A DNA stretch of 64,000 nt, from the NCBI RefSeq assembly GCF_022200785.1, contig NZ_CP087585.1, positions 3,162,001 through 3,226,000 of the forward strand. The letters run 5' to 3'. Below are positions 4,367 through 25,444 of the stretch, in pieces (within the stretch, counting starts at the first letter, position 1; the number at the start of each line of letters is the position of its first letter). The notes below the pieces were generated by a model. The model was given only the letters and a program-made list of their open reading frames with translations, was not told where the DNA came from and ran no database searches. The position numbers were made by a program, and so were the translations under genes. This DNA is from Pedobacter mucosus (GTDB lineage Bacteria > Bacteroidota > Bacteroidia > Sphingobacteriales > Sphingobacteriaceae).

Positions 4367-5516
4367 TCAAAGAAATTACATTACAAAACTTCAAGTGTTT
4401 TCAAAGAAGATCGAAATTTGAGTTTTCTAAATTAAACCTCTAAAAGGAATAAATGGTAGAGGAAAATCTTCCTTATTACAAAGCATGCTGATTTTGTCCC
4501 AATCTGCTTGGAAAAATACAGACATGAAGACCTTGTTTATTAATGACGAATTATTAAACTTAGGAAATTTTGATGACATCAAAAATAGTGAAACACCTAG
4601 AGGTGAGGATATAAATTTTGACTTTTTATTTGAAAACCCCTTTCTTGACACGGTAAATCTTAAGTATAATGAAAATGTTGAGGATTCTCTTTTTGCTGAC
4701 TGCATCAAGATTGATTTAATTCATAAGGATGTAGTTGTATCAATTGAGCCGCAAAGGAAACAGCATGATGATCGCATAAACATTTTCGCAGAAAAGATAA
4801 AGCACATTCATTTCGTCAGTGCAGACAGAACGGGACCTGTAAAGTTCGTTGAAAAAACAAATCTGCCTCAATTTTTGCATGTTGGGCCACGAGGCGAACA
4901 CACGATTAATATCCTTGCAAATTCGAATAAGCTTGATAACGTTAGCGACATTCTATATCTTGGTAATGATGCAAAATCAGTACTACAGCAAACTATTGAA
5001 TGGTTAGGTTACATTTTAGAGGGTGCCAAAATTGATATAAAGGGCCGCGAAAAGGAGAGTAGTGTATTATACATGCTTTTGAACAATAAAAATAGCAGCA
5101 ATAATTATAAACCAATTAATGTGGGATTTGGTTACAGTTATATATTACCATTGATCGTGACAGGACTTATAGCCAAGTCTGGCGAGACAATTATCATCGA
5201 AAACCCTGAAGCCCATCTACATCCTCGGGCTCAATCAAAAATCGCAGAGTTTTTTACGAAAGTGGCCTCATGTGGAGTACAAGTTTTTATTGAATCGCAT
5301 AGCGAACATATATTAAATGGGTTTCGAGTAAATTCCTTAAATCACTCAATTGATGTTAAGCATAACGAGCTTATTATTCACTACTTTGACGAGGAATTTA
5401 GCAGTTTGAAGCTAACGATGGATGAAAAGGGAAAGATCCAAAATTGGCCATATGGATTTTTTGATCAACAAGAAAATGATTTAGCAGAAATTTTTAAGTA
5501 TAGTTTACCGCTATGA
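4363..5516 (+). pseudogene. AAA/ABC-type ATPase (DUF3696-like), frameshifted before Walker A
   Basis: The natural start is the ATG at 4363, overlapping the upstream stop. It encodes MIKEITLQNFKCFQRR, the usual opening of SMC/RecF-like defence ATPases. That frame ends at TAA 4441-4443. Homology continues in the next frame from 4440 as LKGINGRGKSSLL, which contains the Walker A motif, and runs to 5516. The pattern fits loss of one base in a CTCCTA-like stretch. Later features are intact: IIIENPEAHLHPRAQ (Walker B, near 5195) and FIESHSEHILNG (D-loop/H region). An internal ATG at 4485 would give 343 residues without Walker A and so no nucleotide binding. The gene may be truly broken, rescued by frameshifting, or affected by a sequencing error. 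Confidence 0.8.
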
Positions 5517-6418
5517 ACGCACACTTTTACTTAATGTCAGAATCTTTTGCTAACAATGATAAACTATCGCAGGATCTAATCGAAGCGAAAATCAAAGCTC
5601 TTGCCACCGATGTAAGCCTAATTCATAAACACAAAGATACAAATACTGTTTATTTGAATTTTGAGGATTTGTATCCTCAGGAGTTTTTTACAGGTTACAA
5701 TTTACAACAATTCATATGCAATCCCACCGAGCTAAAAAAAATCGGGATTGACAGGGATGTTATAAACTCAGTCAATAATATTGTTCAAAGGGCTGAGATA
5801 ACAAAAATAACTTCTAAAGAGGTTGTATCAGAATTAATCAATTGGAATGATCAGGACAATTGCCATGGTTTACTGGCATTTCATAAAGTTACAAGCTTAC
5901 CAGAAAGTCATCAGATAGTATATGGCATTCAAGGTTGGTACGAATTTAGAAGATTTTATTTAGGAGAATATCCGAAAACAGAAAATTTCTTTATTGATGA
6001 GTGTATTAAGTATTTCCCGAAGTTGTATTTTCATTTCAACAATAGAACTTCAGTTGGAACAATACTTAAAAGCGCTCCAAAAAAACTTATCCACCATTTA
6101 TCGGAATTGAATGATAAATTTGATGGTTGCAGGACGTCGCCCTACAGCAGGCGTGAAACGATTAGAAAGTTTAACTCAACCTGTCGATTTGACCAAGATG
6201 CTTCTATTGAAGGTAATCTATCTCGTAAAAATGCCCTATCTCGGGGTTTTACTAACAATGGTGGGAAGGTGGAGTCTGTGTATTGTGAAATACATCTTAA
6301 ATTATTATTAGACGATAAAGGTAAAGTATCGACCGATCGAAGAATATATTTTCATGAAGGCAAAGTTGAAATTGAAGGTGGTAAAATTTTAGTAGGTCAC
6401 ATCGGGAACCATTTATAA
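5513..6418 (+). CDS. Uncharacterised protein coupled to the DUF262/ATPase pair
   Basis: A 301-residue protein I do not recognise. It begins inside the ATPase stop (ATGA overlap), so it is coupled to that gene. There is no signal peptide or membrane segment. The middle is rich in aromatic and charged residues. The C-terminal 90 residues look like a compact conserved domain: CRFDQDASIEGNLSRKNAL is followed by a strand-rich part containing ESVYCEIHLKLL, RRIYFHEG and a terminal GKILVGHIGNHL. The position suggests the effector or target-sensing member of a three-gene module with the DUF262 protein and the ATPase. The function is not known, and no nuclease motif is obvious. Confidence 0.75.
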   Translation: MNAHFYLMSESFANNDKLSQDLIEAKIKALATDVSLIHKHKDTNTVYLNFEDLYPQEFFTGYNLQQFICNPTELKKIGIDRDVINSVNNIVQRAEITKITSKEVVSELINWNDQDNCHGLLAFHKVTSLPESHQIVYGIQGWYEFRRFYLGEYPKTENFFIDECIKYFPKLYFHFNNRTSVGTILKSAPKKLIHHLSELNDKFDGCRTSPYSRRETIRKFNSTCRFDQDASIEGNLSRKNALSRGFTNNGGKVESVYCEIHLKLLLDDKGKVSTDRRIYFHEGKVEIEGGKILVGHIGNHL

Positions 6419-10745: not shown

Positions 10746-11495
10746 CTAGGGCAGTTCACGATACATCACCCCAGCTAATTCGCACCCCCCCTTTGCATGA
10801 TTTGGATGCTCTTTATTTATGGTAGGATCCTCGGGATTTATATTGAATTTTGATTTTCCCCATTGTTTAAAGAAAAATGGTATGTCTGCTGATTTACATT
10901 GTAATCTTATAGAATCGATCCAATCGAACATAATAGGTCTTGCACCATGACCAGATTCGCCGCCGACAATTACCCAGTCTATACCATCCAAAAATAAATT
11001 ATTAACTGGGCCCAACAGGGGTTCAATTGAAAGAAATTTTATCTTAGCTTTTGTTTGGTTGAGTTCAGAAATTCTCCCTGTATATTTTTCGTTTTCCACG
11101 GAAACACCCATCCAAATATTCTTTGTCCATGTTAGCTCATTTGAAATAGCCAACAATCTGTCTGATCTCTTAGTCAGTACTTGATAGGTATGTTGGGGAG
11201 TTGCATTCATTACGGCGAAAACTGCTTTGATAAAGTTATTTGAGATTTCATCGTGAAATAAATCACTCATAGAATTCACAAAAACTACCTTCGGCTTTCG
11301 CCATGTAAAAGGTATGTTTAGGGATTCGGGATGCATTTTTATGTTAAAACCATCGATATACTTTTGTACCCGCATCGCTTTGAGACGACGAGACATTACT
11401 TCCGCATAACAATGTTTGCATCCAGGACTTATTTTCTTGCACCCCGTAACTGGGTTCCATGTTAGTTCAGTCCACTCTATACTCGATTCCGCCAT
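10746..11495 (-). CDS. DUF5131 (phage Gp37/Gp68 family) three-cysteine-motif protein
   Basis: A 249-residue DUF5131-family protein, annotated in phages as Gp37/Gp68. Near the N-terminus the sequence NPVTGCKKISPGCKHCYAE has three cysteines spaced C-x6-C-x2-C, which resembles an iron-sulfur or radical-SAM-like cluster site. Later conserved blocks are FVNSMSDLFHDEI, QVLTKRSDRL, WMGVSVEN, FLSIEPLLGP and WVIVGGESG. The biochemical role is unknown; a nucleic-acid modification or repair role has been suggested for related proteins. It follows the TcmP gene by 18 bases in the same direction, the usual pairing for this family. It converges on res with a 39-base gap. Confidence 0.88.
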   Translation of the reverse strand: MAESSIEWTELTWNPVTGCKKISPGCKHCYAEVMSRRLKAMRVQKYIDGFNIKMHPESLNIPFTWRKPKVVFVNSMSDLFHDEISNNFIKAVFAVMNATPQHTYQVLTKRSDRLLAISNELTWTKNIWMGVSVENEKYTGRISELNQTKAKIKFLSIEPLLGPVNNLFLDGIDWVIVGGESGHGARPIMFDWIDSIRLQCKSADIPFFFKQWGKSKFNINPEDPTINKEHPNHAKGGCELAGVMYRELP

Positions 11496-11513
11496 TGCAA
11501 CTTTTCCTCAGTA

Positions 11514-12371
11514 TTAAAATAATGATGTTTGTTCATTTACGTAGTTTTTAGCAATAGTCCAGAATTTATTTCCCTGTTTATCCTTGGAAAAAAAAGCTAA
11601 ATGATACAATAATACAGATTTTCCTTTGAGTCTATATTTGACCGCATGAAAATCCTCAATATCATTGTAACCTAAAAGTTTAAAGTTGCTTTTCAATTTA
11701 TCACTAACGAATTGAGTAAAAGACTGATCTGCAGTATCGATTTCTCCTTTGTAGCTACTTCGCCAATTAGGATCCTCTAACAAATACTCTATAGTTCTAT
11801 TCGTCGGTTTCTTGTAGTTCATTTCATTTCGTTTAGCTGCCATTCCAGTTGCTACGAGAATTAGAAAATCCATACGCAATCTACCTAATAGTTTTAATGT
11901 CATGAAATGTATTTCCAATGCGAAAGGATCAACAAAACAAAAACTTAAAACTCGATTTGACTTGCTATATGCAGGAACGTGACTTAAAATTTCTTTTATT
12001 TTTTCGTTACAACTGCCCTTGATAAAGGTTACATCTGCGTGTGGGAAATCTCTATTAACTCTCACCTCCAATGCATTTATCAGATTAATATCTTCATCGC
12101 AGAAAATATATTTTGAGAAGGGTGTGGGCAAAGATAGAGCAATCAGAGCAGATGATTTCACAATTTTACCGGAGGTTTCAATTTTAGCATAACCACTTGA
12201 AGAAAATAAATCGATATATACTAAATTTTCCCATTTTGACCTCATTGTGGAGGTAAATAAATTGGCATATTGGCCAACGAGTCTGTACTTCTCTAAGCCC
12301 CACTCGCCAACTTCCGGTATGCTTAAACCATCATCATAGACCTCATTAATCGGAGAATATTTCGAGAGCAT
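11514..12371 (-). CDS. tcmP: Three-Cys-motif partner protein TcmP
   Basis: A 285-residue protein of the TcmP family, defined by its constant association with three-cysteine-motif proteins such as the DUF5131 gene just downstream. The first half resembles a Rossmann methyltransferase core: LVYIDLFSSSGYAKI (near 50) and SFCFVDPFALEIHF (near 145) are in the positions of a glycine-rich loop and an acidic motif. The enzyme activity has not been established for the family. The gene is 122 bases downstream of the reverse transcriptase on the same strand, so it may share a transcript with it or use its own promoter. Confidence 0.85.
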   Translation of the reverse strand: MLSKYSPINEVYDDGLSIPEVGEWGLEKYRLVGQYANLFTSTMRSKWENLVYIDLFSSSGYAKIETSGKIVKSSALIALSLPTPFSKYIFCDEDINLINALEVRVNRDFPHADVTFIKGSCNEKIKEILSHVPAYSKSNRVLSFCFVDPFALEIHFMTLKLLGRLRMDFLILVATGMAAKRNEMNYKKPTNRTIEYLLEDPNWRSSYKGEIDTADQSFTQFVSDKLKSNFKLLGYNDIEDFHAVKYRLKGKSVLLYHLAFFSKDKQGNKFWTIAKNYVNEQTSLF

Positions 12372-12493: not shown

Positions 12494-14269
12494 TTATTTT
12501 GGCCTTTTGTATTTTATGAAGTTATGATATCCAAATGCAGAGCCATAATAAATTTCTTTTAAATTATCAGGGTATTGACTGCCCTTAGATTTATTATTAA
12601 TTTTTGCAATTTCTCGTCGAACTCGCATCAATTGCATGTTTCTTCTTGTATCAAGGTATCTTAATTGTCTACTCGTAATATTATTGTTTTCTAGCATTTT
12701 GAAACCATTGGTCCAGCACAATCCTTGTTCTAAAGGGTATCGATGTGTATGTATCTTAATCCTTCCTACTGACATAGAAATTAGCTTTTGTAACAACCTA
12801 AATGTTATATGACGTTGCGGGAGTCGGGCATGTCGGCTATCAATTTTAATTGTATGGTTTAATTTCCCTAAAGCTTTCAGCACTTTCTGAGTTTCGCTAA
12901 CCTGTTTTCTAACCTCTTTTTGAATTGTTGATTTTCTTACTCTAATTCGTCCATAGAAATTAAGTTGATAGCCAACAAAGGATATCCATGGCACATTAGC
13001 GGGGTGAATATGTTTATCTCCCCAAAAAAAAGGTTTTTTAGATTTTTGCTCCCAAAAGGTTTTGCTAATTTTTTTTTCTTTATAGTTATTTACTTCTATC
13101 GGATTATGATAAAGAAGAAAACTATTCTGGACTGCTTCCATGTAGGAATTCAGACTATAAAAGCACACATCATGATCCTTATGCATTAAAATCATGTCAT
13201 CACAATATCTTATGTAGAAGGGCCTTGGATGTAATGATACCATAACATCATCGACGTCATGTAAAATAAGATTTGCAACAAAGCAGGATATAGCATTACC
13301 TTGAGGTACACCTAGTTTGAAACTTTCTATATAGGTTTCTCCAAATGCCTCTCTTAATTCATTTGCTGCCCACCCGAACTGTCCAAATGCTAAGTTGTTT
13401 GAAGAGAAATATGATGTATCACCATTTAAGGGGATTATATTTTCTTGGAAAGAAAATGATCCAAGGAAACTGTAAAAAATTTCAACTGCTTTTGGATCAA
13501 TTCTCTCTGAGTTTTTAGCCTCAATTGATAATCTTAACCGCTCAAATACAGATTTAACATGATGATGTTGAACCGTGTCAAAGAACTTTTGGATATCACA
13601 TTCCGCCACCCAAAGCTTAGGGTTTATAGTTCGATATTCCTTAATTTTGGCAATGCAGTCATGATGAGTTGGAATATGATTATTTGTGTTTTTACCTCTG
13701 AATGCAAAAGAACAGTCATGGAAAATTGGATCAAAATAGTGAGTAAAGTATTTTGCTGTTATGGAACAGATAATTTTACTTGTAATATCATATAGCGCTA
13801 TTGGCCGATAGGTAATAGTTCCATTTTTAACATCCTTTTTTATCCCTTTGATTTTAGGCCTTGAAATTATAGAATCTGAACTACCTTGATTAAATACCAA
13901 TTGTTGAATTTCACCAACAAAATTTGTTAGCTTAGAATACCAGTCTGGAATTTCAAAATCATTAACTTCTATATTAAACTTCGTTATCTTATATGTTTTG
14001 AAAAGCCTTTGTTTATTTATAGTAACAGCATCCTTGGCCAATCTTCTTTCAGACTGCTTTAATTTGAGCCAGCTTCTTCTATGTGGGAAGATGCTTTGTA
14101 AAAATTTAAATTCTAAGTGTGTATCCTTTATTTTAATCCTATTCGTATTAGAATGAAGGCTCAAATTTCTTAACATGTGGACTTCATGCCTTTTATTTGC
14201 AGCATTTGCCCTATCTTTGCAGAGAAGTTTGATAATTTTTTCGTCAGTAAAATAATTTTTTAAGATCAT
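12494..14269 (-). CDS. Reverse transcriptase, YCDD type, probable defence (DRT/Abi-like)
   Basis: An RNA-directed DNA polymerase of about 591 residues. Counting from the chosen ATG at 14269, the palm motifs are RPIALYD (about 155), ECDIQKFFD with the first catalytic aspartate (about 225), GVPQGNAIS (about 320-328) and IRYCDDMIL with the two other aspartates (about 355-360). YCDD rather than YADD is found in some unknown-group defence RTs. There is no DGR-type SQ motif, no maturase HNH domain, and no clear retron VTG motif. About 150 residues precede the fingers and about 180 follow the palm. An in-frame ATG at 14329 exists, but it lies upstream of the 14286-14295 repeat arm, so I prefer 14269. 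Confidence 0.85.
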   Translation of the reverse strand: MILKNYFTDEKIIKLLCKDRANAANKRHEVHMLRNLSLHSNTNRIKIKDTHLEFKFLQSIFPHRRSWLKLKQSERRLAKDAVTINKQRLFKTYKITKFNIEVNDFEIPDWYSKLTNFVGEIQQLVFNQGSSDSIISRPKIKGIKKDVKNGTITYRPIALYDITSKIICSITAKYFTHYFDPIFHDCSFAFRGKNTNNHIPTHHDCIAKIKEYRTINPKLWVAECDIQKFFDTVQHHHVKSVFERLRLSIEAKNSERIDPKAVEIFYSFLGSFSFQENIIPLNGDTSYFSSNNLAFGQFGWAANELREAFGETYIESFKLGVPQGNAISCFVANLILHDVDDVMVSLHPRPFYIRYCDDMILMHKDHDVCFYSLNSYMEAVQNSFLLYHNPIEVNNYKEKKISKTFWEQKSKKPFFWGDKHIHPANVPWISFVGYQLNFYGRIRVRKSTIQKEVRKQVSETQKVLKALGKLNHTIKIDSRHARLPQRHITFRLLQKLISMSVGRIKIHTHRYPLEQGLCWTNGFKMLENNNITSRQLRYLDTRRNMQLMRVRREIAKINNKSKGSQYPDNLKEIYYGSAFGYHNFIKYKRPK

Positions 14270-14285
14270 TTGAGCGTTAATAAAT

Positions 14286-14471
14286 AGAGCGTAGCCGGAA
14301 TTAATAAATAGATACAGAGATTGGTGCATGTGCTGGGCAAATACACTATGAGCCTAATAAATCAGGACCGTATAGACTTTTGGATTTTTCGGTTAAATAT
14401 TTTCCTAGACAACTAAGTGTCAACCCTGATGAATGTGATGTTTCGTTGCCTAACACCCTTAGCTACGCTCT
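14286..14471 (-). ncRNA. Candidate ncRNA upstream of the reverse transcriptase
   Basis: A perfect 10-bp inverted repeat, AGAGCGTAGC (14286-14295) with GCTACGCTCT (14462-14471), encloses 186 bases directly upstream of the RT start (17 bases from the inner ATG). This is the layout of retron a1/a2 arms or of the upstream RNA in DRT2/DRT9-type systems. Inside, ATCAGG (14361-14366) can pair with CCTGAT (14425-14430), and a GACA/TGTC hairpin (14408-14421) nests within that stem. A TATATTTG -7 box ends 3 bases before the outer arm, so transcription would begin at or very near the repeat. The RNA itself is inferred and not demonstrated. Confidence 0.5.
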
Positions 14472-14474
14472 TGA

Positions 14475-14482
14475 CAAATATA
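14475..14482 (-). promoter_or_regulatory. Bacteroidota -7 promoter box for the RT locus
   Basis: TATATTTG on the minus strand matches the Bacteroidota -7 consensus TAnnTTTG exactly. The predicted start falls at about 14471-14469, at the first bases of the inverted repeat. No TTG -33 element sits at the ideal spacing; the nearest are 11 and 23 bases upstream of the -7 box. Confidence 0.5.
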
Positions 14483-14495
14483 TTATTTTAATTCA

Positions 14496-15467
14496 ATGCC
14501 ACATCCAAAATTTATAAAGATTTCTTGGTACGACAATATGAAGTCAAAAACCTCATATACAATAGATCTTTTTGCTGAATTAAGACATATTAAACAGGGT
14601 ACTTACAAAGTCCTAATAGAAAGTTGTAGGCTTGCTTATCAGGAGGGCAATTACGGACTCTATAATGACTTGAAATCGACTTTGCCATGTGTAACCTTTT
14701 CCGGAATCTTTAACATTAATCGCAAAGCCACGGAAATTCAAACTTATAATCACATTATAGTATTTGATATTGATAAAATCCCAGATGATAGATTGCAAAA
14801 TCTTAGGAATTTACTTGAAAATGATGTTAAGATACTTGCGTTGTGGCTTTCTCCTTCTGGAGTAGGAATAAAAGGTTTGATAGCAACAGAAAATTCCTTA
14901 CCCTATCACCGTGCGACCTTCGACTCTCTGAGATTCTATCTTCTCGCTAATTATAGTATCGCTTTGGATGATAGCGGTAGTGACGTGTCAAGGCTTTGTT
15001 TTTCATCATATGATCCAGAGATATATTACAACCCAAATTGTTTGCCATATAATGATGTGCTAGTCTTGGAAGCTAATACTGAAGAAAGCGAACTATCAGA
15101 GTTTAACCCGCCCAGCTTCTTGAAAAGCGCATATCAAACTGAAGGATTAAATAAAATTCACGATCGTAGGCTTATGAAACGAATTCTGACTTACTTAGAA
15201 AAGAAATCTCTTTCTATTACTAGAACATATGATGATTGGTTGAGGGTAGCTTTATCAATATCTTATACATTTAGCTACGATGTCGGGGTAAAATACTTTA
15301 TAAAACTTTGTGAATTAGACAAGGAATTACATTCCGAGCAGAAAAGCATCAATCTTTTGAAACATTGCTACGAAATACGAGGCTCAAAAAAGGGAGTAAC
15401 AATCTCTTTCGGTACAATTCTCTTTTTTGCCATGGAAAAGGGGTTTAAGACAATCAAAAACAAATAA
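14496..15467 (+). CDS. BT4734/PriCT_2-type replication protein, helicase part missing
   Basis: A 323-residue protein. Residues about 20-190 match the BT4734-like N-terminal domain found before VirE/primase-helicase regions in Bacteroidota mobile elements (HIIVFDIDKIPDD, LWLSPSGVGIKGLI, DDSGSDVSRLCFSSYDPEIYYN). Residues about 225-300 resemble a PriCT_2 primase C-terminal domain (DDWLRVALSISYTF, HCYEIRGSKKGVTI). In most elements a DUF3987 or VirE ATPase follows; here the protein stops, so this is a short form or a split gene. It is likely a replication or mobilisation remnant of the element. It is divergent from the RT, with the candidate RNA promoter between them. Confidence 0.75.
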   Translation: MPHPKFIKISWYDNMKSKTSYTIDLFAELRHIKQGTYKVLIESCRLAYQEGNYGLYNDLKSTLPCVTFSGIFNINRKATEIQTYNHIIVFDIDKIPDDRLQNLRNLLENDVKILALWLSPSGVGIKGLIATENSLPYHRATFDSLRFYLLANYSIALDDSGSDVSRLCFSSYDPEIYYNPNCLPYNDVLVLEANTEESELSEFNPPSFLKSAYQTEGLNKIHDRRLMKRILTYLEKKSLSITRTYDDWLRVALSISYTFSYDVGVKYFIKLCELDKELHSEQKSINLLKHCYEIRGSKKGVTISFGTILFFAMEKGFKTIKNK

Positions 15468-21067: not shown

Positions 21068-24000
21068 TTATTTCTGACCTGTTACCTTCTCAATTTCAAG
21101 CCTGTTTTGATTATAGGCATAAAGCGCATCCAGATAATCGTATTTGATTTTTAATGCAAGGGACAAGCTTTGCAAATATTGCAGGTAGGCAATCTCTCCA
21201 CCTTTAAAGCCAGCATTGGCGTTTTTAACAATAAGCTCAGCTTGTTTCAAAGCACCGTTCTCATAGTATTTCAGGATATTTAAGTGTTTTGTGTTTTGTT
21301 GCAAAAGCTGGGTCAATGCTCCCTGATAAATACTTTTCTGATATTGCAAGTTGGTGGAAGCAATTTGCTCGCCTACTTTTGCCGCCTTTATCTTTGCCTT
21401 ATAACCACCTGGTAAAATCGGAATGCCAACACCAACCTGAAACCCACCAAAGCGGTCTGACCCACGGAAATTCTGTTGTATGCCGTCAAAAATCTGCACA
21501 CCATTGAATGATTGATTAAAATAGCCAACAGATAAATCAGGTAATAATTTAGCTTTTTGCACCGCTGTTTCCCTTGATCTTACCTTCATCTGCTGCAGTA
21601 AATAATTCAAATATGGGTTAGAGGCAACAGAATTAGTGTCTGTTGTTGATACTGTCGGTTCTCTAGGCAGTTTGTCTTCATTCACAACTATATTTTCTGT
21701 TATACCCAAGAGCGTCTGTAACTGGCTTGCCGCTATCGCTCTTTCAGCGTCGTTTTGCATCAGGGAGTTTTTCAGTTCCATCAACTGGGTCTCTGAGGTT
21801 ACCTTTTCCAATCTGTTACTTTCCCCTGTGCGGTAACGCAGATCACTTGCTTTTAAAAGGTTGGTATACAAACTATCCTGGTAGTATAAGAGTTGTCTTT
21901 TTTCCTGTAGGTAGACCACTTTGTAAAAGCTGGATTTCACCTCACTAATCAGGTTGCTTGATTTTAACTTAAGCTCCGCACTGGCACTTTTTACATTTTC
22001 GGTAGCTAGCTTTGACTGATTAGTATATACAGAAGGGAATTCAAACCTTTGGTTGACGCTAAAGTGGTTGTCCCTGTTGTTGCTATTAATTTGCCCTTGC
22101 TGGTAAGTAAAGCTAGTGCGATCAAGGTTGACTGAACCTTGCTTTAAAGCACTTTGAAGGTCTACTTCATAATTTGCAGCCTTAAGGGATAAGTTGTTCT
22201 TCACGGCCAGATCAATAGCCTGGTCTAAACTTAAGTGTATCGGTGTACCATTTTGAGCAAATGATCTGGAAGGAAATAATAACCCTGCCAATAGCAGTGT
22301 AATGATTAGGGCTGATGCAGGTTTAATCTTCCCAAACTTTTTCTCGAAAACGATATATAAAACCGGTAAAACAATTAACGTCAACAGCGTTGCCGTAAGC
22401 AATCCTCCAATCACGACAGTAGCTAAGGGACGCTGGATTTCTGCACCTGATGTATTGGATATAGCCATTGGCAAGAAACCTAGGGAAGCAACGGCAGCGG
22501 TCATGAGTACCGGGCGAAGCCTGATTTTTGTACCCGTAAGCACTCTTTGATAGATGTCATCCATACCTTCTTCCTTTAGCCTGTTGAACTCGGAAATCAG
22601 TACAATGCCATTTAAAACGGCAACACCAAAAAGCGCAATAAATCCAACCCCTGCAGAAATGCTGAAAGGCATACCACGTATAAGCAGTGCAAAGACACCG
22701 CCAATTGCCGATAAGGGTATGGCAGTAAAAATAAGAAGTGATTGTTTCATCGAATTAAAAGTGAAATAGAGTAAGGATAGAATAAGCAGCAATGCTATGG
22801 GCAATGCTACAGAAAGTCTTCTATTTGCTGCCTGTAAATTCTCAAACTGCCCTCCATAGGTCACATAATAACCTGCTGGTAATTTCAATTTACGATCCAG
22901 TTTTAGCTTTATTTCTGCTACAATACTGGCTACGTCCCGGTCACGCACATTAAATCCTATAGTGATCCTGCGTTTTGTATCATCCCGCTGAATTTGATTG
23001 GGGCCGTTTTTAAACGCCACCGTGGCAACTTCCTGCAACGGTATTTGTTTGCCATCGGGAGTGCTGATGTATAAGGAACGTACATCCTTTATATCCTGAC
23101 GGTCTTGCTGATCCAACCGCACCACCATTTCAAACCGTTTTTCTCCTTCATAAACAAATCCGGCAGCTTCTCCGGCAAATGCAGTTTTTATCGTTTGGTT
23201 TACCTCTTCAATGTTTACTCCGTATTGTGCAATCTTGTCGCGGTTATATTTAATCTGTATCTGGGGCAAACCTGTAACTTCTTCTACGTAAGTGTCATAT
23301 ACTCCGGGAATTGGCCTGATCAGCTTACCGATCTTTGCAGCCTCATCAGAAAGTATGTCCAGATCTTCCCCATATATTTTAAGCACAACGTCCTGCTTGG
23401 CACCTGTAATCAATTCATTAAATCGCATTTGAATCGGTTGCTGGAAACCAAATGTCGCGCCTGGAATGACTGCCAACGCTTTCTGCATGGTATCTGCGAG
23501 GTCTTCTCTGGTTGCAGCAGTTTTCCATTCGCTTTTGTCTTTTAAGATCACCATCATATCCCCGGCCTCAATAGGCATTGGATCGGTGGGGATTTCTCCG
23601 GAGCCAATCTTATTAACCACCTGTGTGACTTCGGGAAATTTAAGGATGATATCCTGTGCCTTTTTAGAAACATCAATCATCTGGTCGATTGAACTACCTG
23701 TCAAAACCCTGGTTTCTACCGCAAAATCTCCTTCGTCAAGTTGTGGTATAAATTCTCCGCCCAGTGTGCTAAAGGTGAAAATGGTGATTACCAGTAATAC
23801 TCCTGTAACCACAAGGACAACCGTTTTGTGATGAATGACTTTTTCAATTACCGGGCTATATCTCCTTTGAAACCAGTCCATCATTTTATCAGAGAAATTT
23901 CTCTTATGGACGGTGTTCTTACTTAAACCCAGAGCAGCCATCATTGGCACATAGGTTAAGGAAAGGATAAAGGCACCCATAATCGCAAACATTACGGTTT

Positions 24001-25444
24001 GTGCCATTGGCTTAAACATCTTGCCTTCAATGCCTACCAGCACCAGCAGAGGCAAATAGACAATTAAAATGATGATTTCGCCAAAGGCGGCACTGTTCCT
24101 GATTTTTGAAGAAGCCTCATAGACTTCTTCATCCATTTGATCAGCAGACAGCCTGGTAATATTCCTTTGAATGAAGTCTCCAATTGCTATCCTATGGATA
24201 ATACTTTCAACGATAATTACTGCGCCATCTACAATGAGTCCAAAGTCGATAGCACCCAAACTCATCAAGTTCCCCGAAACACCAAACAGATTCATCATAC
24301 ACACCGCAAAAAGCATGGCTAGCGGTATAACGGATGCGACGATCAATCCTGCGCGCAGATTCCCTAAAAACAAAATAAGCACAAAAATAACTATCAGCGC
24401 CCCCTCAATAAGGTTTTTGGAGACCGTACCAATGGCACTGTCTACCAGTTTTTTTCGATCAAGGAATGGCTCAATCGTTACCCCTTCAGGTAACGTTTTT
24501 TTGATCTGCTCAATCTTTTCCTTTACATCTTTGATGACAGCTGAAGAGTTGGCACCTTTGAGCATCATCACAATACCAGTAACGGTTTCACCCTGACCAT
24601 TTCTTGTTGCAGCACCATAGCGAACGTTATTGCCGAATTGTACAGTGGCGACGTCCCTAATCAGGATTGGTGAAGTTCCATTGCTTCTGATCACTATTTT
24701 CCCAATATCATCCAAGTTCTCTACCAGCCCCTCACTTCTGATAAAGTAAGCATTGGGCGATTTATTGATATAAGCACCACCTGTATTTTGGTTATTGGTT
24801 TGCAATGCTTTAAAAATATCAGATATGCTGATTTTTAAACTGCTTAGGCGATCAGGGTTAACAGCAATCTCGTATTGCTTAACGAATCCGCCAAAACCAC
24901 TCACTTCTGCTACGCCGGGAGTGCCCAGTAATTGTCTCTTTACGATCCAATCCTGAATTGAACGCAGCTCCATCGCATTATACTTTTTTTCAAATCCCTT
25001 CTTAGGATGAATCACGTACTGGTAGATTTCTCCAAGCCCTGTGGTAACAGGTGCCATTTCAGGGGTTCCAATACCTTCCGGGATTAATTTTGCTGCATCA
25101 ACAAGCCGTTCATTGATCTGCTGTCTTGCCCAATAAATATCCACATCTTCATTGAATACCACTGTGACCAGTGATAGACCGAAGCGGGAAAATGATCGGA
25201 TTTGTTTGATGCCGGGGATGCTGGCCATCGTTTGCTCGACAGGAAAGGTGATTAGCCTTTCCGCTTCCTGGGCTGCAAGTGAGGGGGTAGTGGTGATGAT
25301 CATAACCTGATTATCTGTTATATCAGGTACGGCATCAATAGGTAAACGGGTGATGGAATATCCTCCCCATGCGATAAGCGCAAGGGTCAATAAACCAATA
25401 AGGAGTTTATTCTTAATAGAAAACTCTATGATTTTATTTAGCAT
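21068..25444 (-). CDS. CusA/CzcA heavy-metal RND pump fused to a TolC-type outer-membrane protein
   Basis: A 1458-residue protein. Residues 1 to about 1040 are a complete HME-family RND transporter: N-terminal helix, two large periplasmic loops, 12 membrane segments, and the proton-relay DFGLIVDGAVIIVES near 405. After a linker that looks like a signal peptide (near 1050-1070, ending SRSFAQNG), the last 390 residues are a TolC-like protein with the LSLDQAIDLAVKNN start and repeated coiled-coil segments. Fusions of this length are known in Bacteroidota. The pump would export a monovalent or divalent metal (Cu, Ag, Co, Zn or Cd). It is the first gene of the adaptor-MFS operon. Confidence 0.92.
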   Translation of the reverse strand: MLNKIIEFSIKNKLLIGLLTLALIAWGGYSITRLPIDAVPDITDNQVMIITTTPSLAAQEAERLITFPVEQTMASIPGIKQIRSFSRFGLSLVTVVFNEDVDIYWARQQINERLVDAAKLIPEGIGTPEMAPVTTGLGEIYQYVIHPKKGFEKKYNAMELRSIQDWIVKRQLLGTPGVAEVSGFGGFVKQYEIAVNPDRLSSLKISISDIFKALQTNNQNTGGAYINKSPNAYFIRSEGLVENLDDIGKIVIRSNGTSPILIRDVATVQFGNNVRYGAATRNGQGETVTGIVMMLKGANSSAVIKDVKEKIEQIKKTLPEGVTIEPFLDRKKLVDSAIGTVSKNLIEGALIVIFVLILFLGNLRAGLIVASVIPLAMLFAVCMMNLFGVSGNLMSLGAIDFGLIVDGAVIIVESIIHRIAIGDFIQRNITRLSADQMDEEVYEASSKIRNSAAFGEIIILIVYLPLLVLVGIEGKMFKPMAQTVMFAIMGAFILSLTYVPMMAALGLSKNTVHKRNFSDKMMDWFQRRYSPVIEKVIHHKTVVLVVTGVLLVITIFTFSTLGGEFIPQLDEGDFAVETRVLTGSSIDQMIDVSKKAQDIILKFPEVTQVVNKIGSGEIPTDPMPIEAGDMMVILKDKSEWKTAATREDLADTMQKALAVIPGATFGFQQPIQMRFNELITGAKQDVVLKIYGEDLDILSDEAAKIGKLIRPIPGVYDTYVEEVTGLPQIQIKYNRDKIAQYGVNIEEVNQTIKTAFAGEAAGFVYEGEKRFEMVVRLDQQDRQDIKDVRSLYISTPDGKQIPLQEVATVAFKNGPNQIQRDDTKRRITIGFNVRDRDVASIVAEIKLKLDRKLKLPAGYYVTYGGQFENLQAANRRLSVALPIALLLILSLLYFTFNSMKQSLLIFTAIPLSAIGGVFALLIRGMPFSISAGVGFIALFGVAVLNGIVLISEFNRLKEEGMDDIYQRVLTGTKIRLRPVLMTAAVASLGFLPMAISNTSGAEIQRPLATVVIGGLLTATLLTLIVLPVLYIVFEKKFGKIKPASALIITLLLAGLLFPSRSFAQNGTPIHLSLDQAIDLAVKNNLSLKAANYEVDLQSALKQGSVNLDRTSFTYQQGQINSNNRDNHFSVNQRFEFPSVYTNQSKLATENVKSASAELKLKSSNLISEVKSSFYKVVYLQEKRQLLYYQDSLYTNLLKASDLRYRTGESNRLEKVTSETQLMELKNSLMQNDAERAIAASQLQTLLGITENIVVNEDKLPREPTVSTTDTNSVASNPYLNYLLQQMKVRSRETAVQKAKLLPDLSVGYFNQSFNGVQIFDGIQQNFRGSDRFGGFQVGVGIPILPGGYKAKIKAAKVGEQIASTNLQYQKSIYQGALTQLLQQNTKHLNILKYYENGALKQAELIVKNANAGFKGGEIAYLQYLQSLSLALKIKYDYLDALYAYNQNRLEIEKVTGQK

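Follow-up and report, generated by a model that had tools for sequence, protein, structure and literature searches.

A UG39 reverse transcriptase of Pedobacter mucosus with an upstream structured RNA and a neighbouring PrimPol-like gene: a candidate three-part defence system

The reverse transcriptase and the RNA upstream of it

The window described here is a stretch of 64,000 nucleotides (nt) of Pedobacter mucosus DNA, positions 3,162,001 to 3,226,000 of contig NZ_CP087585.1, and the locus of interest is a reverse transcriptase (RT) gene with its immediate upstream region. The RT gene runs from 12494 to 14269 on the minus strand and encodes a protein of 591 residues with a YCDD motif, as a first-pass annotation of the locus had reported. 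Its start ATG at 14269 is M21 of the open reading frame (ORF) 12494-14329 and agrees with the starts of homologues. Directly upstream on the same strand lies a putative structured non-coding RNA (ncRNA) with a predicted extent of 14286 to 14471, and beyond it, divergent from the RT on the plus strand, a gene for a PrimPol-like protein of 323 residues (BT4734-like_N, VirE-PriCT2; 14496 to 15467), which the first-pass annotation had overlooked. It seems rather likely that the UG39 RT, the RNA and the PrimPol-like protein form a three-part system of the defence-associated reverse transcriptase (DRT) kind, working by the mechanism proposed below.

By its profile matches, the RT belongs to group UG39 and is not a retron RT. 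The PADLOC model RT_UG39 matches it over profile positions 2 to 538 of 541 (E 4.1e-165, 548.8 bits), followed at a distance by Drt9 (85.8 bits), a general RT profile, Drt2, CRISPR RT-Cas1, RT_UG17 (the DRT10 group) and Drt3a. The NCBIfam Drt2 score is 58.1 bits against a cut-off of 390, and the retron models are also below their cut-offs, St85 at 37.3 bits against 235 and the TIR retron model at 24.2 against 600. The AlphaFold2 model of the protein has a predicted local distance difference test score (pLDDT) of 91.3, and a Foldseek search with this fold places DRT9 structures at ranks 1 to 6 and the first retron structure at rank 28. Profile and fold ranks point to a possible place among the class 2 UG enzymes. 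Tyr581, close to the C terminus, is present in 56 of the 57 aligned RTs and is the predicted priming residue.

The features that the first-pass annotation had listed upstream of the RT are all at their claimed positions. The perfect 10-bp inverted repeat has the arms AGAGCGTAGC (14286-14295) and GCTACGCTCT (14462-14471). The 186 bases said to be enclosed by it are the span with both arms included, the gap between the arms being 166 nt, and the repeat does end just before the RT start, with 16 nt between its inner arm and the ATG. The inner stems 14361-14366/14425-14430 (ATCAGG/CCTGAT) and 14408-14421 (GACA..TGTC) are present, as is the TAnnTTTG box, a Bacteroidetes-type -7 box by the consensus used in that annotation, which is found as TATATTTG at 14475 to 14482 on the minus strand. 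Since the window holds 29 perfect 10-bp inverted repeats whose arms are 40 to 240 nt apart, and TAnnTTTG is no commoner in it than expected (84 observed, 94 expected), the repeat and the box are not significant by themselves. What raises the locus above chance is conservation, because four helices, P1, P2, P3 and P5, covary in 16 loci.

P1 joins the two ends of the RNA, its 5' arm AGAGCGTAGCT at 14461-14471 pairing with its 3' arm GGCTACGCTCT at 14286-14296 (minus strand, as are all helices given here), and changes on both sides are found in 9 of its 11 pairs. In the P2 hairpin (14438-14456), where GTGTT at 14452-14456 faces AACAT at 14438-14442, three of six pairs have changed on both sides and three are invariant. 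The P3 hairpin, which is the GACA..TGTC stem at 14408-14421, has changes on both sides in all four pairs, and the P5 hairpin (14324-14346; GTGTAT at 14341-14346 with ATGCAC at 14324-14329) in four of five. The stem between ATCAGG at 14425-14430 and CCTGAT at 14361-14366 would be a long-range one; since its core, CAGG/CCTG, is invariant in 15 of 15 sequences, covariation neither supports nor refutes it, and CCTGAT may alternatively pair with TAGG at 14404-14407, as in the RNAalifold structure.

The covariation was measured in two alignments. Alignment A1 contains 15 loci of the window's branch aligned with MAFFT without the use of structure. RNAalifold finds P1 and P3 in it, and for 11 of the 19 pairs that it draws one sequence or more has changes on both sides. 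For the four-helix structure, in which P2, P3 and P5 were placed on A1 by eye, 92.2% of the cells are paired, compared with 75.6% after shuffling, 18 of 26 pairs vary on both sides, and the covariation score is 0.463, compared with 0.184 for shuffles, none of 500 being as good and slid versions reaching at most 0.158. The covariance model R1, built from A1 with the window among its 15 source sequences, was searched against 37 sources and recovered all 15 source loci together with L026, which had not been used in building it (E 1.5e-5); two further matches at chance level (E 0.33 and 0.34) were dropped before pairs were counted. In the 16 sequences aligned by the model, an alignment that leans towards the structure by design, 94.0% of the cells are paired (73.5% shuffled), 20 of 26 pairs have changed on both sides, and the covariation score is 0.544 (0.181 shuffled, 0 of 500 as good, slid structures at most 0.170). 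Because of this covariation in 16 loci and the finding of the unused locus L026, we conclude that a structured RNA, predicted by comparison of sequences, is encoded at about 14286-14471 on the minus strand, where the R1 match itself extends from 14277 to 14474. The idea that a conserved structured RNA occupies the place that it has in DRT2 and DRT9 has thus withstood a covariance test on homologues.

The RNA of the window folds better than its shuffled versions (z -2.28), of which 3 in 200 do as well. R1 has one clear copy in the window's genome, the only other match having an E-value of 7.2, and the exact TAnnTTTG lies directly upstream of the RNA in 12 of the 15 aligned loci. Scanning the window against Rfam at the gathering score gives nothing except a tRNA elsewhere, so that the RNA matches no Rfam family; a match to MIR530 in the RNA region is on the plus strand and at chance level (E 4.3) and was discarded. 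No terminator-like site was found at the locus.

The PrimPol gene and the branches of the family

A scan of genome contigs for homologues of the RT gave 18 loci. Whole-genome searches used the UG39 profile at E<=1e-50, in genome sets that overlap and with the window's own genome included in the family, genus, phylum and class counts. At the levels of family, genus, phylum and class, the genomes with a UG39 RT number 15 of 399, 10 of 145, 5 of 395 and 3 of 295; in a second group, that of the genome G547, they number 2 of 397 for the family and 6 of 299 for the genus. One further UG39 locus is on a Thiospirochaeta plasmid, and metagenomes contain 609 homologues of the RT at E<=1e-30. Viral contigs searched with the window RT yielded none, and with the UG39 profile 64 loci of distant RTs; two queries of phage records at E 1e-20 gave no match. 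The locus set does not include the distant RTs L017 and L018, nor copies of other entries, namely L019 (of the window), L036 (of L002), L041 (of L001), L044 (of L003) and L045 (of L013). Neither the P1 test nor the tree uses the near-copies L022, L028, L031 and L040, and the tree also omits L012, L033 and L047, whose RTs are short or broken. The RT frame stops early in L012, L033 and L037, and the RT of the plasmid locus L047 is annotated as two coding sequences.

The RT tree has 34 rows and divides into four groups, A to D, each of which is one side of a branch, with L016 alone on a long branch. PrimPol orientation follows this tree. It is divergent in branch A (17 rows, including the window) and in branch C (3 rows), upstream on the same strand in branch B (10 rows), and no PrimPol is nearby in branch D (3 rows). 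Counted over all loci, a PrimPol gene adjoins the RNA in 36 of 41, divergently in 22 and on the same strand in 14. None was found in L016, L033, L037, L038 and L039, an absence that for whole-genome loci holds within 1.5 kb, since their flanks are that long, and none of ten neighbour proteins from four branch D loci is BT4734-like in a Pfam scan. In L023 the PrimPol is split into two ORFs.

The RNA appears to keep its place through these changes. A stem like P1 that closes immediately before the RT start is significant (p<=0.05) in 28 of 37 loci, whose sequences differ widely, and has p above 0.05 in the other nine (L003, L011, L012, L013, L027, L038, L039, L046 and L047); among the loci listed, it closes 1 to 30 nt before the start. 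The branch A model R1 has no matches to the RNAs of branches B, C and D, which therefore differ in sequence while keeping the same place, nor does it match L012 and L013, which had first been placed near branch A. Support for P1 in branch B is modest, as its covariation is equalled by 1 of 500 shuffles, but its pair types by 465 of 500, and a slide of +1 is nearly as good. Comparison across the branches thus indicates selection on the RNA structure, which remains attached to the start of the RT, and shows that the PrimPol gene stays beside the RNA while switching strand between branches.

The PrimPol-like protein matches the PADLOC model RTasVirE-PriCT2 (PDLC03818) at E 1.2e-94 and Pfam BT4734-like_N at 81 bits, against a gathering score of 22.4, while its match to NCBIfam PrimPol_Db, at 60 bits, is below the cut-off of 200. 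Each residue of its DxD, SPSxxGxK and DxxR motifs is conserved in 35 or all 36 of the aligned homologues; each Asp of motif I (DxD) is present in 35 and the Asp of motif III (the D of DxxR) in all 36. The motifs given for archaeo-eukaryotic primases (AEPs) in excerpts of PMC5862659 are hhhDhD/E, sxH and hD/E. The second of these does not occur here, the presumed His position being a Lys in 35 of 36, although sxH is the general AEP pattern and maybe not that of BT4734-like proteins. A sequence search for solved structures found none for this protein, whose AlphaFold2 model has a pLDDT of 87.9 and a predicted template modelling score of 0.62. CRISPR-associated primase-polymerases, including DbCAPP, for which a D86/D88 mutant served as control, are DNA-dependent DNA polymerases, and their CAPP_B class has VirE N-terminal domains (excerpts of PMC8211822); from the name of the model PrimPol_Db, DbCAPP would be of type B.

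A possible template and the rival explanations

In DRT10 the template loop contains a direct repeat of the form A-B-A'. By analogy with DRT10, the expected place of a template in the window is the loop 5' of the P1 3' arm, at 14297-14323 on the minus strand. Over 25 loci, the 45 nt that precede the P1 3' arm hold more direct repeats than their shuffles do (p 0.002). This pooled test was carried out once the repeats were known, on P1 arms placed partly by eye and with related branch D loci; two control windows further upstream in the same 25 loci show no excess. By branch, the A-B-A' test gives p 0.022 for B, 0.015 for C and 0.002 for D. The repeat unit in this loop is ATTCG in branch D, whereas L042 has nearly three copies of a 6-nt unit and L029 a 4-nt unit. 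The branch D loci L038 and L039 (context L114 and L115) share ATTCGATTCGA in the RNA loop. In the window an A-B-A'-form sequence, ATCTCTGTATCT at 14310-14321 (minus strand), is attractive by eye and was rejected, being no better than chance (p 0.83 for the window alone, 0.54 for ten loci of branch A). A poly-U template like that of DRT9 was rejected as well, as U-runs follow TCCTG in only some of the 15 A1 rows, which were read by eye.

The mechanism proposed for the system starts with binding of the RNA by the RT, P1 closing a scaffold of several stems. From the loop that precedes the P1 3' arm, a short segment would be copied repeatedly into repetitive complementary DNA (cDNA), primed by the C-terminal region around Tyr581, as in DRT9 and DRT10. 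The PrimPol may then copy the repetitive cDNA into a second strand, and upon phage infection the DNA would build up and block phage growth. Class 2 UG systems studied so far have ncRNAs in cis that template repeat cDNA (excerpts of PMC13174585), and since UG39 shares the class 2 layout and has its nearest fold there, the most plausible guess is RNA-templated, protein-primed synthesis of repeats; we infer a template role for the RNA on this ground. Second-strand synthesis is suggested by a separate PrimPol beside an RNA-linked RT, given the precedents of DRT3, where two enzymes make double-stranded repeat DNA (excerpts of PMC13174585), and DRT7, an RT-PrimPol fusion for which a review, seen in part, reports preprint evidence of protein-templated synthesis (PMC13213688). 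Two results weigh against this reading. The pooled repeat signal is driven by branch D and L042, without which it falls to p 0.15, and in branch A, that of the window, the expected loop has no template-like repeat above chance. A bolder form of the proposal, possible though doubtful, would make UG39 a telomerase-like ribonucleoprotein with its own second-strand enzyme, in which the RT, primed by its C-terminal Tyr, copies the ncRNA loop into single-stranded tandem repeats and a dedicated PrimPol makes them double-stranded. The repeat unit would vary by branch, ATTCG in D being an example, and branch D, having no PrimPol, would use the single strand.

The lack of a template-like repeat in the window's branch favours an unlikely alternative, namely that the RT needs the RNA as a scaffold or activator and not as its template, DNA synthesis being untemplated or protein-templated with the PrimPol giving primers. 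The reported protein-templated synthesis of DRT7, itself an RT with a PrimPol, would be a precedent, whereas the RNA templates of the class 2 systems and the tandem repeats enriched in the 3' loop of branches B, C and D argue the other way. Another role, that of a leader regulating in cis how the RT or the PrimPol is translated or transcribed, with no part in the enzyme, is suggested by the closing of P1 so near the RT start. Bacterial genes often have structured leaders. Counting against one here are the four covarying helices, which extend over about 185 nt, the failure to find a terminator-like site at the locus and the functional RNA that the nearest relatives by fold have in the same place, according to the published excerpts, and we regard a leader as decidedly improbable.

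The first-pass annotation had called the element retron-like, and an RNA that lies just 5' of an RT gene, with an inverted repeat at its ends, is indeed what the a1/a2 arms of an msr/msd RNA with branched, RNA-linked DNA would look like. The assignment of the RT to UG39, with retron models far below cut-off and retron structures so late in the Foldseek ranking, rules this label out, and we give a retron hardly any credence. Just as improbable is the explanation that RNA and PrimPol are replication parts of a mobile element with the RT along for the ride. A resolvase gene lies at 1407-2009, and the superfamily that includes BT4734/VirE primases is common on mobile elements (excerpts of PMC5862659), but the RNA follows the RT start while the PrimPol switches strand or is missing. 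RNA-templated repeat synthesis by the RT, with the PrimPol as second polymerase, remains the preferred explanation. From the first-pass interpretation the central idea of a conserved structured RNA is kept and the retron label dropped.

Genomic surroundings and relation to known systems

Judged by its gene content, the neighbourhood of the RT locus is a defence island, with genes for TcmP, DUF5131, type III restriction-modification, AAA_15/DUF3696, GmrSD_N and YhcG besides the resolvase. Branch D neighbours are OLD-like ATPases (L114, L115) and BREX BrxL (L113). Because the neighbours are of defence type, the RT system probably serves phage defence. The DUF5131 and TcmP genes form a pair beside the RT (10746-12371, minus strand), and both are PADLOC candidate defence models (PDC-M41A/B). 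Inside this island, an ORF of 301 residues (5513-6418, plus strand) stands directly before the type III methylase and matches nothing in Pfam at E 0.001; it is perhaps a defence gene that has gone unrecognised, forming a pair with the preceding AAA_15/DUF3696 gene. In L038 and L039, which have no PrimPol nearby, the gene immediately upstream of the RT is AAA_15/OLD-like. The branch D RT is followed directly by ORFs of 343 residues (L114:6639-7670, minus strand), with a PDDEXK match below cut-off, and of 363 residues (L115:4486-5577, plus strand), with no Pfam match; both are possible effectors. Farther away, an ORF of 1458 residues (21068-25444, minus strand) reads, by its translation, like a fusion of a CusA/CzcA-type resistance-nodulation-division (RND) pump with a TolC-like outer-membrane protein.

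The UG39 system shares features with several known systems. DRT9 (UG28) also has an RNA directly upstream of the RT (excerpts of PMC12483538), the closest fold by Foldseek and a conserved Tyr near the C terminus; however, the window RT fits UG39 far better than Drt9 and has a PrimPol neighbour, and the poly-U tract, universally conserved in the DRT9 RNA, is not conserved in the window's branch, by reading of 15 sequences. DRT10, composed of UG17, SLATT and ncRNA, is also made of three parts and has a template loop near the RNA 3' end, with loop repeats like those of some UG39 branches, but the UG39 partner is a PrimPol and not SLATT (the neighbours being PrimPol and TcmP), and A-B-A' repeats are not significant in the window's branch. 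DRT7 (UG10) likewise pairs an RT with a primase-polymerase, although in one fused protein of a different RT group and with no ncRNA named in the part of the review available (PMC13213688). In DRT3 (Drt3a, Drt3b and ncRNA) RNA-templated synthesis and a second polymerase yield double-stranded repeat DNA, as may be the case in UG39, but that second polymerase is an RT instead of a PrimPol. DRT2 is set apart by the low Drt2 profile score. CAPP_B/PrimPol_Db proteins have the same VirE_N (BT4734-like) catalytic domain with a DxD motif; the window gene is well below the cut-off of that model and adjoins an RT and an RNA, not cas genes.

The RT group and its VirE-PriCT2 neighbour are already known from PADLOC models, where the group is named RT_UG39, so that the earlier suggestion of a new subtype may stand for the RNA, which matches no Rfam family, and not for the RT. 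PADLOC UG39 with RTasVirE-PriCT2 and the myRT group 'UG28b' with VirE_N are alike in RT group by profile and in neighbour gene, and no RNA partner or mechanism is given there in the text available. 'UG28b' was split from UG28 in a 2021 paper, with VirE_N genes beside 45-46% (excerpts of PMC8934634), and would be equal to UG39. No published RNA partner of UG39 was found in the literature searched, which did not include the UG survey NAR gkac467, where one may be mentioned.

If the proposal is true, an RNA partner would be added to an RT group found only as a profile name and a neighbour gene, and the coordinates and covariance model given here are supplied for experiment. The system would join the RNA-templated DRTs (DRT2, 9, 10 and 3a) with the RT-plus-PrimPol design of DRT7. 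Class 2 UG enzymes have been proposed as kin of telomerase (PMC12632851), and the UG39 system would make it testable whether RNA-templated repeat synthesis is common to them.
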